NCBI RefSeq assembly: GCF_032854445.1
Contig: NC_088301.1
Location: 13,944,281 to 14,008,280, forward strand
DNA length: 64,000 nt
Source: Liolophura sinensis
Taxonomy: Eukaryota; Mollusca; Polyplacophora; Chitonida; Chitonidae
Direction of reading: 5' to 3'
A program made the position numbers and the translations under genes. Below, piece by piece: positions 50,501 through 56,500 of the stretch. Under the pieces are notes generated by a model. The model searched no databases, was not told where the DNA came from, and was given only the letters and a program-made list of their open reading frames with translations. Positions within the stretch are counted from its first letter, which is position 1. Each line of letters begins with the position of its first letter.

Positions 50501-53500
50501 AATTCCCCAATTTATTTGTTTCAGAAACAAACAGAAAAGAGACAGACGTTGTGACAGTGCCAAATAAGGACAATGTGATTGTCCATGAACCCAGAACCAA
50601 AGTCGACCTTACCAAATACTTGGAAAACCAACAGTTCAGATTTGATTACGCTTTTGATGAGAATGTGAAAAATGAGGTTGTTTACAGGTAGGATATTTCT
50701 CTATCATCTGTCTGTATATTTCTCTATCATCTGTAATAATCATCTATCTCTGTCTATTTCTCTATCATCTGTAAAAATCATCTATCTCTATCTATTTCTC
50801 TATCATCTGTAATAATCATCTGTCTGCATATTTCTTTATCATCTGTAATAATCATCTATCTCTGTCTATTTCTCTATCATCTGTAAAAATCATCTATCTC
50901 TATCTATTTCTCTATCATCTGTAATAATCATCTGTGTATCTATTTCTCTATCACCTTTAATAATGATCTATCTGTCTATTTGTCTATCATCTGTAATAAT
51001 CATCTACCCCTGTTTATTTCTCTACCATCTGTAAAAATTATCTAACCCTGTCTGTTTCTCTGTAAAAATCATCTATCTAGGTCTGTGGCTCTATCATCTG
51101 TAAAAATCATTTATCTCTATTTCTCTATCATCTGTAAAAATCATTTATCTCTATCTGTATCTCTGTCATCTGTAAAAATCATCTGTCTCTATCTACTTCT
51201 CTATCATCTGGCCAACATTAGGGTAACAATGGCAGTGTTCAAACTATTTGTTTAATCTCAATTGAAGTTTTCAGGACTGAAAAGTGATGAAGAAGTTTGA
51301 CGTTTATTTTTTGTACATTGATATCGATGTCTCGTATTTTTTTTCCCCAGATATACAGCAAAGCCTTTGGTAGACTGTATATTTGAGAAGGGGATGGCTA
51401 CATGCTTTGCTTATGGCCAAACAGGAAGTGGGAAAACACATGTAAGAAATAAAGTGGGGCTCATTTTTGTGTCAAAAGTGTCAGTGGTATTTATGTCCAT
51501 GTACGTTACTGTAAATGCCTTTTTATTCGCGGGATTAACTTTTGCGGATTTGGCAAGAAGACAAATTCGCGGGAATCAACTCTGGCAGATCTTTGGACAA
51601 CTGATAAACGAAAGTCAAACTTCAACACAGAAACGTCGAAACAATTTAAGATTTCAAGTAACAGTTTTGTCATTTAAACTTGCTTGTACCTGTATGATGT
51701 GACAAAAATTCTATACAGTACAGTAACTTGATCAGACAAAGGAAGTTAGTCCTCCTTTTAATCTTTTGAAGACGAAGCCCTTATACGTTGTGTGAGCTAA
51801 TGTATGTGTCACTCACTCCAGGAGACAACGAAGGATTAAATGTAATATAAATAAATCCCACAGTTTAATTCTTATGCATCAGCAGTGTGAGTGAAACTTT
51901 GAGTGAACTTGGACAGATTTGAGAAAATTTCTCAAATCATTATGAAAAGGAAGTTTGAAGTGCGGCAACCCCCAAGCGATCTATCGAAAGGTGATCTGAC
52001 TGGAAGGCAAGAACAGTGGACACGAAAACAGCTGCATATCACGTACACAAGCCTAGTATAAATTATCGATTTGTATGTCTTTAACAACAACAACAATGTC
52101 GCATTGTAGCTGTACCTAGACAGAGCTAAGCCTCCTTAAAAGAAAGCAAGATTAACTGACGATCAATTAAGCTGGATTTGTGAAAGCCTGAATACATTCT
52201 AGTGAGGCATTTCTAATTACCGTTTTTGAAAAAGTGTTAGAACTGTAGTGCTTGTTAACGAATTTATAACTGTAATGCATGCTACATTAATAAATTACTT
52301 ACATGTATTTTTTATCCGATGGCACTTATTTTTCGCGGAAACGTGTTTGCCATGAAATCCGTGAGTGTTGGTACCACGTGAATAGAAAGGCATTTACAGT
52401 ATTTCTTGTCCATGTATGTTTATAATTCATGTGCATGCGTAAAAGATTTATAAAATAATTTGATGCAGCAGAAAAACAGTAAAATCTATCAACATTAAAA
52501 TGTAAATTGTGTTCTATACCAAAGTGGTGTAACGTCTGTCTGTATTTGAACAAAACAAAACAATACAAATGCTCAGGTCAAAAGTTAAATAAAATTAAAT
52601 ATTACATGTATGTCGATGAATATAGTGTTACACTGTTTTTTTAATGTTGATATCATTAAACATTGATTCTTTGAAAACCTAGACTGAAAAGTTCATAACT
52701 GTATATATTTTTAAATGTTACAGATAGAAAGGATGTAGAAATTATTTCATGAGTGTTTTGGTGTTTCTGTTGTCTCTTCAGACAATGGGAGGGGATTTTT
52801 CAGGGAAGGGACAACAAGACTGCACAAAAGGAATCTACTTTCTGGCGGCCAGGGATGTCTTTCGCCTTCTTCATTCTAAATATAAGAAATTGGACCTAAA
52901 TGTGGGGGCAAGCTTCTTTGAAATATATAGTGGAAAGGTTTGTACCATTTGCAGTTCAAAATATTGATTCTGCTGTTCAGTGCTCATTTGAGAAAGCAGT
53001 CATAAATCAGTTTTGGTCATAGCTCTGACAAAGATGCAAATATGATGAAAGCTTGAAATACAAACATTATGAGTTAATTCTTTTGAAATTTCCTTGTGGC
53101 AAAAATTTCTCTAGCCCAGAATATTTGTTTCCCACATATAAATCTTTCCGCAAATAATTTTATGTACTAAACCTTTGTGTTTCAGGTATTTGACCTCCTG
53201 AACAAAAAACAGAAGTTGCGAGTGCTGGAAGACGGGAAGCAGCAGGTTCAGGTGGTAGGGCTGAAGGAGGAGACGGTGGAGTGTGTGGAGGATGTGATAG
53301 GTCTTATACAGCACGGCAACAATGTTAGGTAAGGAACTGTAGCTCATACAACACAGCAGCAATGTTAGGTAAGGAACTGTAGCTCATACAACACAGCAAC
53401 AATGTTAGGTAAGGAACTGTAGCTCATACAGCATGGCAACAATGTTAGGTAAGAAAGTGTACCTCATGCAACATGGCAACACTGTTAGGTAAGGAACTGT

Positions 53501-56500
53501 AACTCATACTACACAGCAACAATGTTGGGTAAGGAACTAGCTCATACAACACAGCGACAATGTTTGGTAAGGAACTGTAGCTCATACAACACAGCAACAA
53601 TTTAGGTAAGAAAGTGTACCTCATGCAACATGGCAACACTGTTCGGTAAAGAACTATAGCTCTTACAACACGACAACAATGTTAGGTAAGAAAGTGTACC
53701 TCATGCAACATGGCAACACACTTAGGTAAAGAACTATAGCTCCTACAACAAGGCAACAATGTTCGGTAAGGAACTGTACCTCATGCAATACAGCAACAAT
53801 GTTAGGTAAAGAACTATAGCTCATGCGACTTGGCAACAATGTTAGGTAAGGAACTGTAGCTCATACAACATGGCAACAATGTTAGGTAAGAAAGTGTACC
53901 TCATGCAACATGGCAACACTGTTAGGTAAGGAACTGTAACTCATACTACACAGCAACAATGTTGGGTAAGGAACTAGCTCATACAACACAGCGACAATGT
54001 TTGGTAAGGAACTGTAGCTCATACAACACAGCAACAATTTAGGTAAGAAAGTGTACCTCATGCAACATGGCAACACTGTTCGGTAAAGAACTATAGCTCT
54101 TACAACACGACAACAATGTTAGGTAAGAAAGTGTACCTCATGCAACATGGCAACACACTTAGGTAAAGAACTATAGCTCCTACAACAAGGCAACAATGTT
54201 CGGTAAGGAACTGTACCTCATGCAATACAGCAACAATGTTAGGTAAAGAACTATAGCTCATGCGACTTGGCAACAATGTTAGGTAAGGAACTGTACCTCA
54301 TCCAACACGGCAACAATGTTAGGTAAAGAACTGTAGCTCATGCAACACGGCAACAATGTTCGGTAAGGAACTGTACCTCATGCAACACGCCAACAATGTT
54401 AGGTAAAGAACTGTACCTCATGCAACACGGCAACAATGTTAGGTAAGGAACTGTAGCTCATACAACACAGCAACAATGTTAGGTAAGAAACTAGTTCATA
54501 CAAAGGGCAACAATGATAGGTAAGGAACTATGGCCCATACAACACAGCAACAATGATAGGCGAGGAAATGTAACTTCTATAACAGGGCAACAATGATAGG
54601 TCAGGAACTGTGGCTCATACAACACAGCAACAGTGTTAGGTAAGGAACTGTGGCTCATACAACACGGCAACACTGTTAAGGTTCATACAACACGGCAACA
54701 ATGTTAGGTAAGGAACTGTACCTCCTACAACACGGTAACAATGTAAGGTAAGGAACTGTGCTCCTACAACACGGCAACAATGTTAGGTATGGAACTGTGA
54801 CTTATACAGCCCGTCAACAATGTTAGGTAAGGAACTGTAGCTCATACAACACACCATCAATGTTAGGTAAGGAACTGTAGCTCATACAGCACTGCAACTT
54901 AGGTAAGGAACTATAGCTCATACAACAATGATGGGTAAGAAACTGTAGCTCTTACAGCCCTCAACAATACTAGGTAAGGAACTGTAACTTGCACAACTCG
55001 GCAATTGTGTTAGGTAAAGAACTGGAACTCATACAACACGGCAACAATGTTAGATAAGGGACTGAAGCTCATACAGCACGGCAACAATGTTAGGTAAGGA
55101 ACTGTTGCTTATACAACACGGAAACACTAAGAGGAGCGCGTTTGATGAATTACACAGCAAGGGTTGTAGTCATGTGGGAGGATACACCACAGATTTCTGG
55201 CAAAAACATCAATCAGCACAAATCCAGGTGAATTTTTTGGTATTAATTAAGAATGGCCCAGATAATCACCTTTCACTGAATATCAGCCTCACCTGTATGC
55301 ATGTTCCCAATCGGTAATAAAGTTTAAATAATTTATAATGCAATTCACTTTATAACTTTTGCAAAATTTAAAATAATTTTAACATTATAAATGGTACAGG
55401 TACAAGGCTTATCATTGGTAAGCTTATGCTTAAAAGAATAGATTTGATTAGTGTATACAGATTTTTTCCCCAAAATCTCAAAAAATACAGCTAGTTCAAC
55501 TATAGCAATAGACAGCAAAGTTTGTGACTGATTTTTGCCAAGCTATGAAAATGGTTCAAGCTTTAATTTAGAAATTTTCTCCTCAGAACTTCAGGAACAA
55601 CCTCTGCTAATATGCATTCATCTAGATCCCATGCTGTTTTCCAAATCATACTAAGACGGAGGTAAGTGTTGCAACCTTTTCTAACCATTCCAGTTTGCAG
55701 CGTTGAGGCATTTGTCCTGTGAACTATTAATGCAAATTTTGTATCCTTATTGTCTGTTTGTGAACATTTATTTCCTAGATTGGTTCATTGCAAGAGCGTT
55801 GGAGCTATGCTGCTGTTTCCCCTTGGTCATGCGCTAAAATTGCAGTGTAGAGACTTTCACCAGATAATTTCAGAACTTGGCTGCGTGTATTGGGACGGGA
55901 GTGTGGCTCATGTGAATATTAATATCTGTACTGGCGTCTACCCACTCGGAGGTCTAGTGGGCGAGGGGGTTAGCATGCCAGCATAGTGCAATGGCCCTGG
56001 AGCCTCTCACCAACGCGGTTGCTGTGAGTTCAAGTCTAGTTCATGCTGGCGTCCTCTCCGGCTGAAAGTGTGTGAAGTCTGGCCGCCCTTCACTGTCTCA
56101 CTCCCCAGCTCTCATCGTAATCCTGGCTGCCTTCATATAAGCGAAGTATTCTTGAGTATTGTGTAAAACACCAATCAAAACACAAAGTTTACCTACCCTC
56201 TTTTTTACGGTTTCAGGAATACAAAGAAACTCTATGGGAAGTTTTCTCTGATAGATTTAGCAGGTATGTTTGTCTTTTATCTTTTTGCTCCTCTTAAGCT
56301 TTACCTCTAAAAAATCCTGATGTACACTGCTGGTATTTACGACCATCAGGAAAGATTATACAAACAAAGCAAAACACTTTTGATATTCCAATACACAGGG
56401 AGAATCAAGTTTATGTTTTCTGGACATTTGTCATCAGGAATATCCTCATGTAGTATGGAAATTGAAAGTGGTGTTTTCTGATTTTACAAAGTTTAGAAAA

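Follow-up and report, generated by a model that had tools for sequence, protein, structure and literature searches.

A kinesin-13 gene of the chiton Liolophura sinensis contains a minisatellite in which the end of a coding exon, its 5′ splice site and the start of the following intron are joined in a 40 bp unit and repeated in 46.4 copies. The array occupies positions 53306–55126 (+) of the window, by which we mean the whole 64 000 nt stretch of contig NC_088301.1 that was analysed (forward strand, 13 944 281 to 14 008 280), a part of C7 in a 609 Mb assembly of 632 contigs. We consider it probable that this array is a mirage, the name already given to such arrays on the donor and acceptor sides of amphioxus exons (PMC3087553, PMC3902484; publications are cited throughout for those parts of each that were accessible), and that it is a tolerated by-product of repeat-rich introns in which the first donor is chosen under exon definition; we infer both this choice of donor and the absence of a dedicated function. 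An earlier note on this DNA had known of no description of the arrangement, a claim that the amphioxus reports overturn. Nor is the arrangement unique in the genome, since 19/257 sampled exon matches carried an array of this kind.

Host gene

Joining eleven exons between 48405 and 58828 gives a single open frame, the ten introns all being bounded by GT-AG, and this frame requires both the first donor of the 40 bp array (after 53328) and the last acceptor of a second array (49593). The best match of the joined protein was KIF2A (PDB 2gry), with 654.9 bits over the motor and an E value of 3e-196; 11 PDB sequences were matched at E ≤1e-60, with Klp10A and KIF2C following 2gry. Judged by sequence similarity, the host gene is a kinesin-13, and its closest solved relative is KIF2A. 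The exon at 53186–53328, searched alone, scored 29.4 bits against the Pfam Kinesin profile (cut-off 29.3), and the alignment to 2gry crosses the exon junction without insertion. This exon of 143 nt is flanked by introns of 248 nt upstream and 2258 nt downstream. A search with the exon for copies elsewhere, such as a retrocopy, gave 12 matches, all at its own locus (C7:13997466-13999408), which was the single candidate place scored.

Structure of the boundary arrays

The motor exon (53186–53328, +) ends in QHGNNVR, and its final 23 bases lie inside the array as bounded by Tandem Repeats Finder (TRF), so that the exon ends inside the first unit. The first donor, GTAAGG, follows at 53329–53334 (+) and is the sole donor that keeps the reading frame. 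The intron runs from 53329 to 55586 (+), with 1798 of its 2258 bp made up of array, and leads to the coding exon at 55587–55661 (+), the next in the kinesin-13 frame. TRF reported a period of 40, 46.4 copies, 79 % matches and a score of 2109 for 53306–55126, in good accord with the earlier estimate of about 45 copies at 53300–55120, whilst wrap-around alignment resolved 47 units, full and partial. The aligned unit consists of CTCATACAACACGGCAACAATGTTAG followed by GTAAGGAACTGTAG, with the splice junction between them. It does span exon end and intron start as had been proposed, although the division is about 26 exon-derived and 14 intron-derived bases rather than 20 and 20.

That a real donor has been multiplied within a kinesin-13 gene was borne out, the GT being kept in 43/46 copies (the first copy and 42 of the 45 distal ones). 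Of the 42 distal copies with GT, 16 equal or exceed the first donor in U1 pairing. The donors are indeed repeated dozens of times, but 'near-identical' was a somewhat strong description, as the array contains 14 exact instances of the 10-mer TTAGGTAAGG and 24 of AGGTAAG. Conservation is high over the donor and similar elsewhere in the unit, for example at CAACA. Higher-order structure was also present: 53404–53855 and 53841–54292 are 99.8 % identical over 452 bases, with one mismatch, which suggests that the array either changed recently or was doubled in the assembly. Reading any later donor in the coding frame gives GTT AGG TAA, an immediate stop, in agreement with the earlier proposal that the first donor alone is productive.

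A second boundary array in the same gene lies on the acceptor side, at 49117–49627 (+), where a 55 bp unit made of the intron end TTCTTGTTTCAG and the exon start is repeated in 9.3 copies with 98 % matches. The kinesin-13 exon at 49593–49696 (+), part of the joined frame, starts inside the last copy, which is the productive one; splicing to the preceding copy would bring in a stop. Both arrays thus repeat a unit of minisatellite size head to tail (40 bp × 46.4 and 55 bp × 9.3), and in both the unit holds exon, splice site and intron.

Frequency across the genome

Boundary arrays were found at exons of the kinesin, myosin and chaperonin families. These families were picked for exon number and not for repeats, and exons within one gene are not independent. 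The sample was drawn from whole-genome profile searches that scored the best candidates only, giving 132 Kinesin and 81 Myosin_head exon matches; after three matches in the window were dropped, there remained 210 matches, which, retrieved with 420 flanking bases each, made up 155 stretches. To these were added 47 of 50 chaperonin matches, the three dropped (two on C5 and one at C6:7942446) having long open frames and being taken as intronless. Arrays were found by TRF and inspected by eye if they lay within 16 bases (Kinesin and Myosin_head) or 25 bases (chaperonin) of a match edge, which is an approximate exon edge only, and they were counted if they held the splice site and at least five exon bases.

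On this basis, boundary arrays were present at 16 of the 210 Kinesin and Myosin_head matches, 11 on the donor side (L006, L013, L038, L052, L056, L057, L070, L080, L137, L147 and L154) and five on the acceptor side (L022, L024, L063, L130 and L151), and at three of the 47 chaperonin matches, all on the donor side (L167, L190 and L191). The combined frequency was 19/257, or 7.4 % (95 % interval 4.5–11.3 %), a count that includes three arrays of just two or three copies (L070, L154 and L191). L005, L032, L034, L040, L084, L112 and one array of L192 were judged to fall outside the rule. Donor-side arrays outnumbered acceptor-side arrays by 14 to 5 (p 0.06), or by 14 to 7 if the borderline acceptor cases L005 and L192 are added. 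L053 belongs to the 210 matches but was not counted as a mirage, being a rearranged copy in the same kinesin gene as L052. At this locus (C11:27412563-27415250), a larger partial copy of the exon lies inside repeats after a 73 bp exon-edge array, and such a rearrangement might lead toward a new exon.

The distribution of repeats around exons bears on how such arrays come about. In the 210-match sample, array coverage was 12–16 % at 201–400 bp from a match edge, 4–7 % in the first 20 bases outside the edge and 2–6 % in the 20 bases just inside it; in the chaperonin sample, it was 9–16 % at 201–400 bp and 2–9 % within 20 bases of the edge. Coverage is therefore lower near exon edges than deeper in introns, which argues that arrays are not targeted to edges and would fit a random process against which selection acts in part at the edges. 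The repeats look like a general intron feature that overruns exon edges and has been purged from them in part, and the kinesin-13 array is probably a by-product in a repeat-rich genome. Genome-wide, three AGGTAAG motifs spaced 18–48 bases apart were listed 1503 times on the forward and 1477 times on the reverse strand, against 899 and 504 for a backward control; these counts are not used as evidence, many of the listed matches coming from one array and their relation to exons lying outside the count.

Splice-site choice and the fate of distal copies

Under the reading that we prefer, a minisatellite would have arisen by tandem duplication of a segment spanning the exon–intron boundary, and would then have expanded by unequal exchange or slippage. 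The 143 nt exon would be recognized as a unit, with U1 on the first donor pairing across the exon with the acceptor complex, and it is because of this exon definition that the array would be tolerated. Proximity across the exon is predicted to let the first donor beat the 42 other GT donors, which would yield exons of at least 183 nt. At the acceptor array, the same principle would favour the last copy, with weaker published support. Occasional use of another copy would meet a stop and should feed nonsense-mediated decay (NMD).

Published minigene work supports the donor side of this proposal. When two 5′ splice sites of the same sequence (CAG/guaagu) competed between flanking introns of 365 nt, the upstream site was used exclusively, and among near-equal 5′ sites in a long-intron context the upstream site was preferred, sites closest across the exon being favoured (PMC9225289). 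As the upstream preference at 3′ sites is weakened by long introns without being reversed, donor arrays would be expected to be better borne than acceptor arrays; the donor excess of 14 to 5 matches that expectation, but is suggestive only.

The reading consequence of using the next copy was followed in 18 arrays (12 donor and 6 acceptor, the three chaperonin arrays excluded). A stop resulted in 14 and a frameshift in two (L006 and L013, without a stop in the stretch read), whilst in the remaining two, both in kinesin genes (L151 and L154), the next copy adds 27 or 30 nt, that is 9 or 10 residues in frame and without a stop, and could give alternative proteins. As most next copies lead to a stop or frameshift, the surviving arrays are not mainly the harmless ones, and this fits rare use of distal copies.

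Several observations weigh against the view that a tolerated array is resolved by proximity. Before strength matching, about 60 % of human events favoured the downstream 5′ site, also in the long-intron classes, and strength was the main determinant of choice (PMC9225289). The preference for the upstream copy at 3′ sites is reduced but not reversed by long introns (PMC9225289), which argues against the last acceptor copy being favoured by proximity alone. The 248 nt upstream intron sits at the 200–250 nt limit quoted for exon definition (PMC9225289). Over 15 arrays, the first donor was stronger than the median distal copy in seven, equal in seven and weaker in one (sign p 0.07), and its strength may therefore add to proximity. 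The gap was marked in L006 (first donor GAG/GTAAGA, with GAG/GTAATG in 6/6 distal copies) and L056 (first donor CAG/GTGAGT, with the form CAG/GTCA.T in 13/17 distal copies).

The distal dinucleotides have been kept. Over 12 donor arrays the distal GT was intact in 104/110 copies (0.945), or in 114/121 over 15 arrays once the three chaperonin arrays are added. The figure of 0.945 compares with 0.825 for random column pairs, where 2.2 % of 5000 draws reach it, and with 0.806 for the remaining GTs within those units, where no draw does. In six acceptor arrays the distal AG was intact in 44/52 copies (0.846, random pairs giving 0.880); in the five arrays that have other AGs, it was kept at 0.892 against 0.794 for those, a value again reached by no draw. 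Distal dinucleotides are without erosion, in favour of the reading that we prefer; some retention is perhaps beyond neutral expectation and counts against a purely neutral reading, a signal of limited weight given the shared ancestry of the copies, the few matched columns and the choice of arrays by eye.

Alternative explanations

Retention of distal donors bears most directly on the possibility, which we regard as unlikely, that they are used at a real rate, so that a premature stop and NMD follow and array length tunes KIF2A output. The earlier note had likewise raised use of the array for prematurely terminated transcripts. The 43/46 copies with GT, the 16 of 42 distal GT donors that equal the first in U1 pairing, the stop read after any later donor and the better retention of GT than of other column pairs or other GTs over 12 donor arrays would all suit such a function, and of these the better-than-expected retention is the only hint toward it. 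Against it, similar arrays at 19/257 matches in three unrelated families indicate that this gene is not special, identical tandem donors in minigenes resolve exclusively to the upstream one (PMC9225289), and in 7/15 arrays the first donor exceeds the median distal one in strength. Extended to the genome, the same idea is similarly doubtful. By extrapolation from the 7 % frequency, thousands of exons would be bounded by unstable splice-site arrays, whose copy number and distal strength would form a heritable, fast-changing rheostat of splicing fidelity; distal GTs would be kept for that reason, and donor arrays would be allowed whilst acceptor arrays are mostly purged, exon definition resolving identical donors better.

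Two further explanations appear very improbable. In the first, copy number was created or inflated by read collapse or mis-joining. Array copy number is hard to assemble, and the 452 bp duplication with its one mismatch could be an assembly doubling; however, the sampled contigs span 25–96 megabases, many of the 40 bp copies differ from one another, and like arrays with other units occur at 19 other exon matches. The second is intron gain in progress via tandem genomic duplication. Mirages have been proposed as a route to new introns (PMC3087553), and a boundary-spanning tandem duplication created a new intron in potato (PMC4974935). In the kinesin-13 gene, however, the array beyond its first unit is confined to one intron, no second exon has formed, and the joined frame aligns with KIF2A across the junction free of insertions.

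We give slightly less credence still to a landing array for U1 (telescripting), in which many U1 sites would shield the intron from premature polyadenylation. The 43 GT-bearing donor copies do lie within the first 1.8 kb of the intron, but its single AATAAA/ATTAAA, at 55316, is past the array, and arrays also occur on the acceptor side, where the splice site binds no U1. Least credible is recursive (ratchet) splicing, in which the AG then GTAAG of each unit would let every splice regenerate a donor and the array be removed stepwise: the units do read GTTAG/GTAAGG, the formal shape of a zero-length exon, but they have no polypyrimidine tract, the pyrimidine fraction over the 20 nt that precede 34 array AG/GT sites (mean 0.47, maximum 0.60) comparing with 0.60–0.85 at the ten true acceptors of the gene, and we rejected them as recursive splice sites, which require a functional 3′ splice site (pyrimidine tract and AG) fused to a 5′ splice site, on this pyrimidine content.

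Other repeats in the gene and window

Two more arrays lie close to exon edges in the kinesin-13 gene. An array of 36 bp units at 41668–42367 (+), many of which end in the acceptor-like TTGTCTAG or TTGTCAG, stands just upstream of the acceptor of the exon at 42411–42488 and does not enter it. The other, at 50703–51210 (+), is intronic with periods of 38, 74 and 112 bp, and starts at intron base 16 after the exon at 50525–50687, the donor being excluded. Four arrays in one gene that touch or nearly touch exon edges had suggested targeting to edges, a possibility dropped in view of the lower near-edge coverage of the wider sample.

Elsewhere in the window, minisatellites at 12144–12784 (112 bp × 5.8) and 12908–13286 (46 bp × 8.2) lie in introns of a cystathionine gamma-lyase-like gene, whose exon matches lie at 7386–16943. 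The second stops about 57 bp before the exon at 13343, and its unit contains TACTGAT, which resembles a branch-point motif. The sequence GTAAAACACCAATCAAA has fourteen copies in the window (≤2 mismatches), on the forward strand at 2943, 13872, 25983, 38842, 48120, 56163, 57470, 58611 and 59876 and on the reverse strand at 36409, 35628, 11401, 6111 and 3648. It is apparently part of a dispersed repeat like a short interspersed element (SINE), and we take it to resemble mollusc SINEs. Open frames at 23031–24215 (394 aa) and 27106–27933 (275 aa), both on the forward strand, gave no Pfam match at E 0.001. Outside the window, C1:1375382-1381670 holds an array of about 6 kb with units of about 54 bp containing AGGTAAGG, and C8:37880506-37891931 has eight matches in a row to the haemocyanin domain PF14830, which we take to be the molluscan haemocyanin family. 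On these matches the genome reads as molluscan, and amphioxus was set aside as its source; the 14 genomes used as controls in that search, none with a match, are bacteria and archaea and carry no information on animals.

Comparison with known systems

Natural arrays of identical splice sites lend themselves to testing how splice sites are chosen. Under exon definition the copy nearest across the exon should be used, and under intron definition the copy nearest across the intron. Since 19/257 exon matches carry such arrays, a single RNA-seq data set could show which rule holds at many loci that differ in copy number and site strength, and whether donors resolve better than acceptors. Gene annotation in such genomes would meet many false splice sites.

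The kinesin-13 array belongs to a kind already described, to which it adds a mollusc host, its copy number, a second case in the same gene and the 19/257 frequency. Partial listings of the open literature, outside which most subscription papers fall, and two abalone papers, seen in part, yielded no mollusc mirage; with this host, mirages would not be peculiar to lancelets. In amphioxus, mirages are minisatellite-like tandem duplications of exon–intron boundaries, on either the donor or the acceptor side, as in the globins BflGb6 and BflGb9, and Adh3 is cited as a case described before, unstable both in length and somatically (PMC3087553). RT-PCR there suggests no interference with regular splicing (PMC3087553), lancelet Adh and TnC mirages are reported without aberrant mRNAs, and similar repeats in PGBD5 are partly annotated as exon in one gene model (PMC3902484). 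From the accessible parts of these reports, the amphioxus and mollusc arrays have in common that many copies carry splice signals, that the host genes are ordinary protein-coding ones and that turnover shows signs of being concerted. They differ in size, the BflGb6 haplotypes having six and three units (PMC3087553) and the kinesin-13 array 46. The amphioxus mirages were checked by RT-PCR, whereas the mollusc array was read from genomic sequence, in a genome where 19/257 exon matches are affected.

Three further systems offer partial parallels. An abalone TSSK1-like gene carries in intron 3 a 27 bp minisatellite that varies among individuals, likewise in a mollusc intron (that of a gastropod), although in the accessible text no crossing of an exon edge is described, unlike in the kinesin-13 array (PMC6905558). 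The potato tandem duplication across an intron–exon boundary has the same starting event as the kinesin-13 array, but it made a new intron, whereas the kinesin-13 copies stay within an existing intron and form no new exon (PMC4974935). Finally, the exon-centric proximity rule applies to the same configuration, an exon followed by a run of identical donors in a long-intron context, and predicts that the upstream donor wins; the published test placed two donors in minigenes, whereas the kinesin-13 array presents 43 GT donors in a natural gene (PMC9225289).

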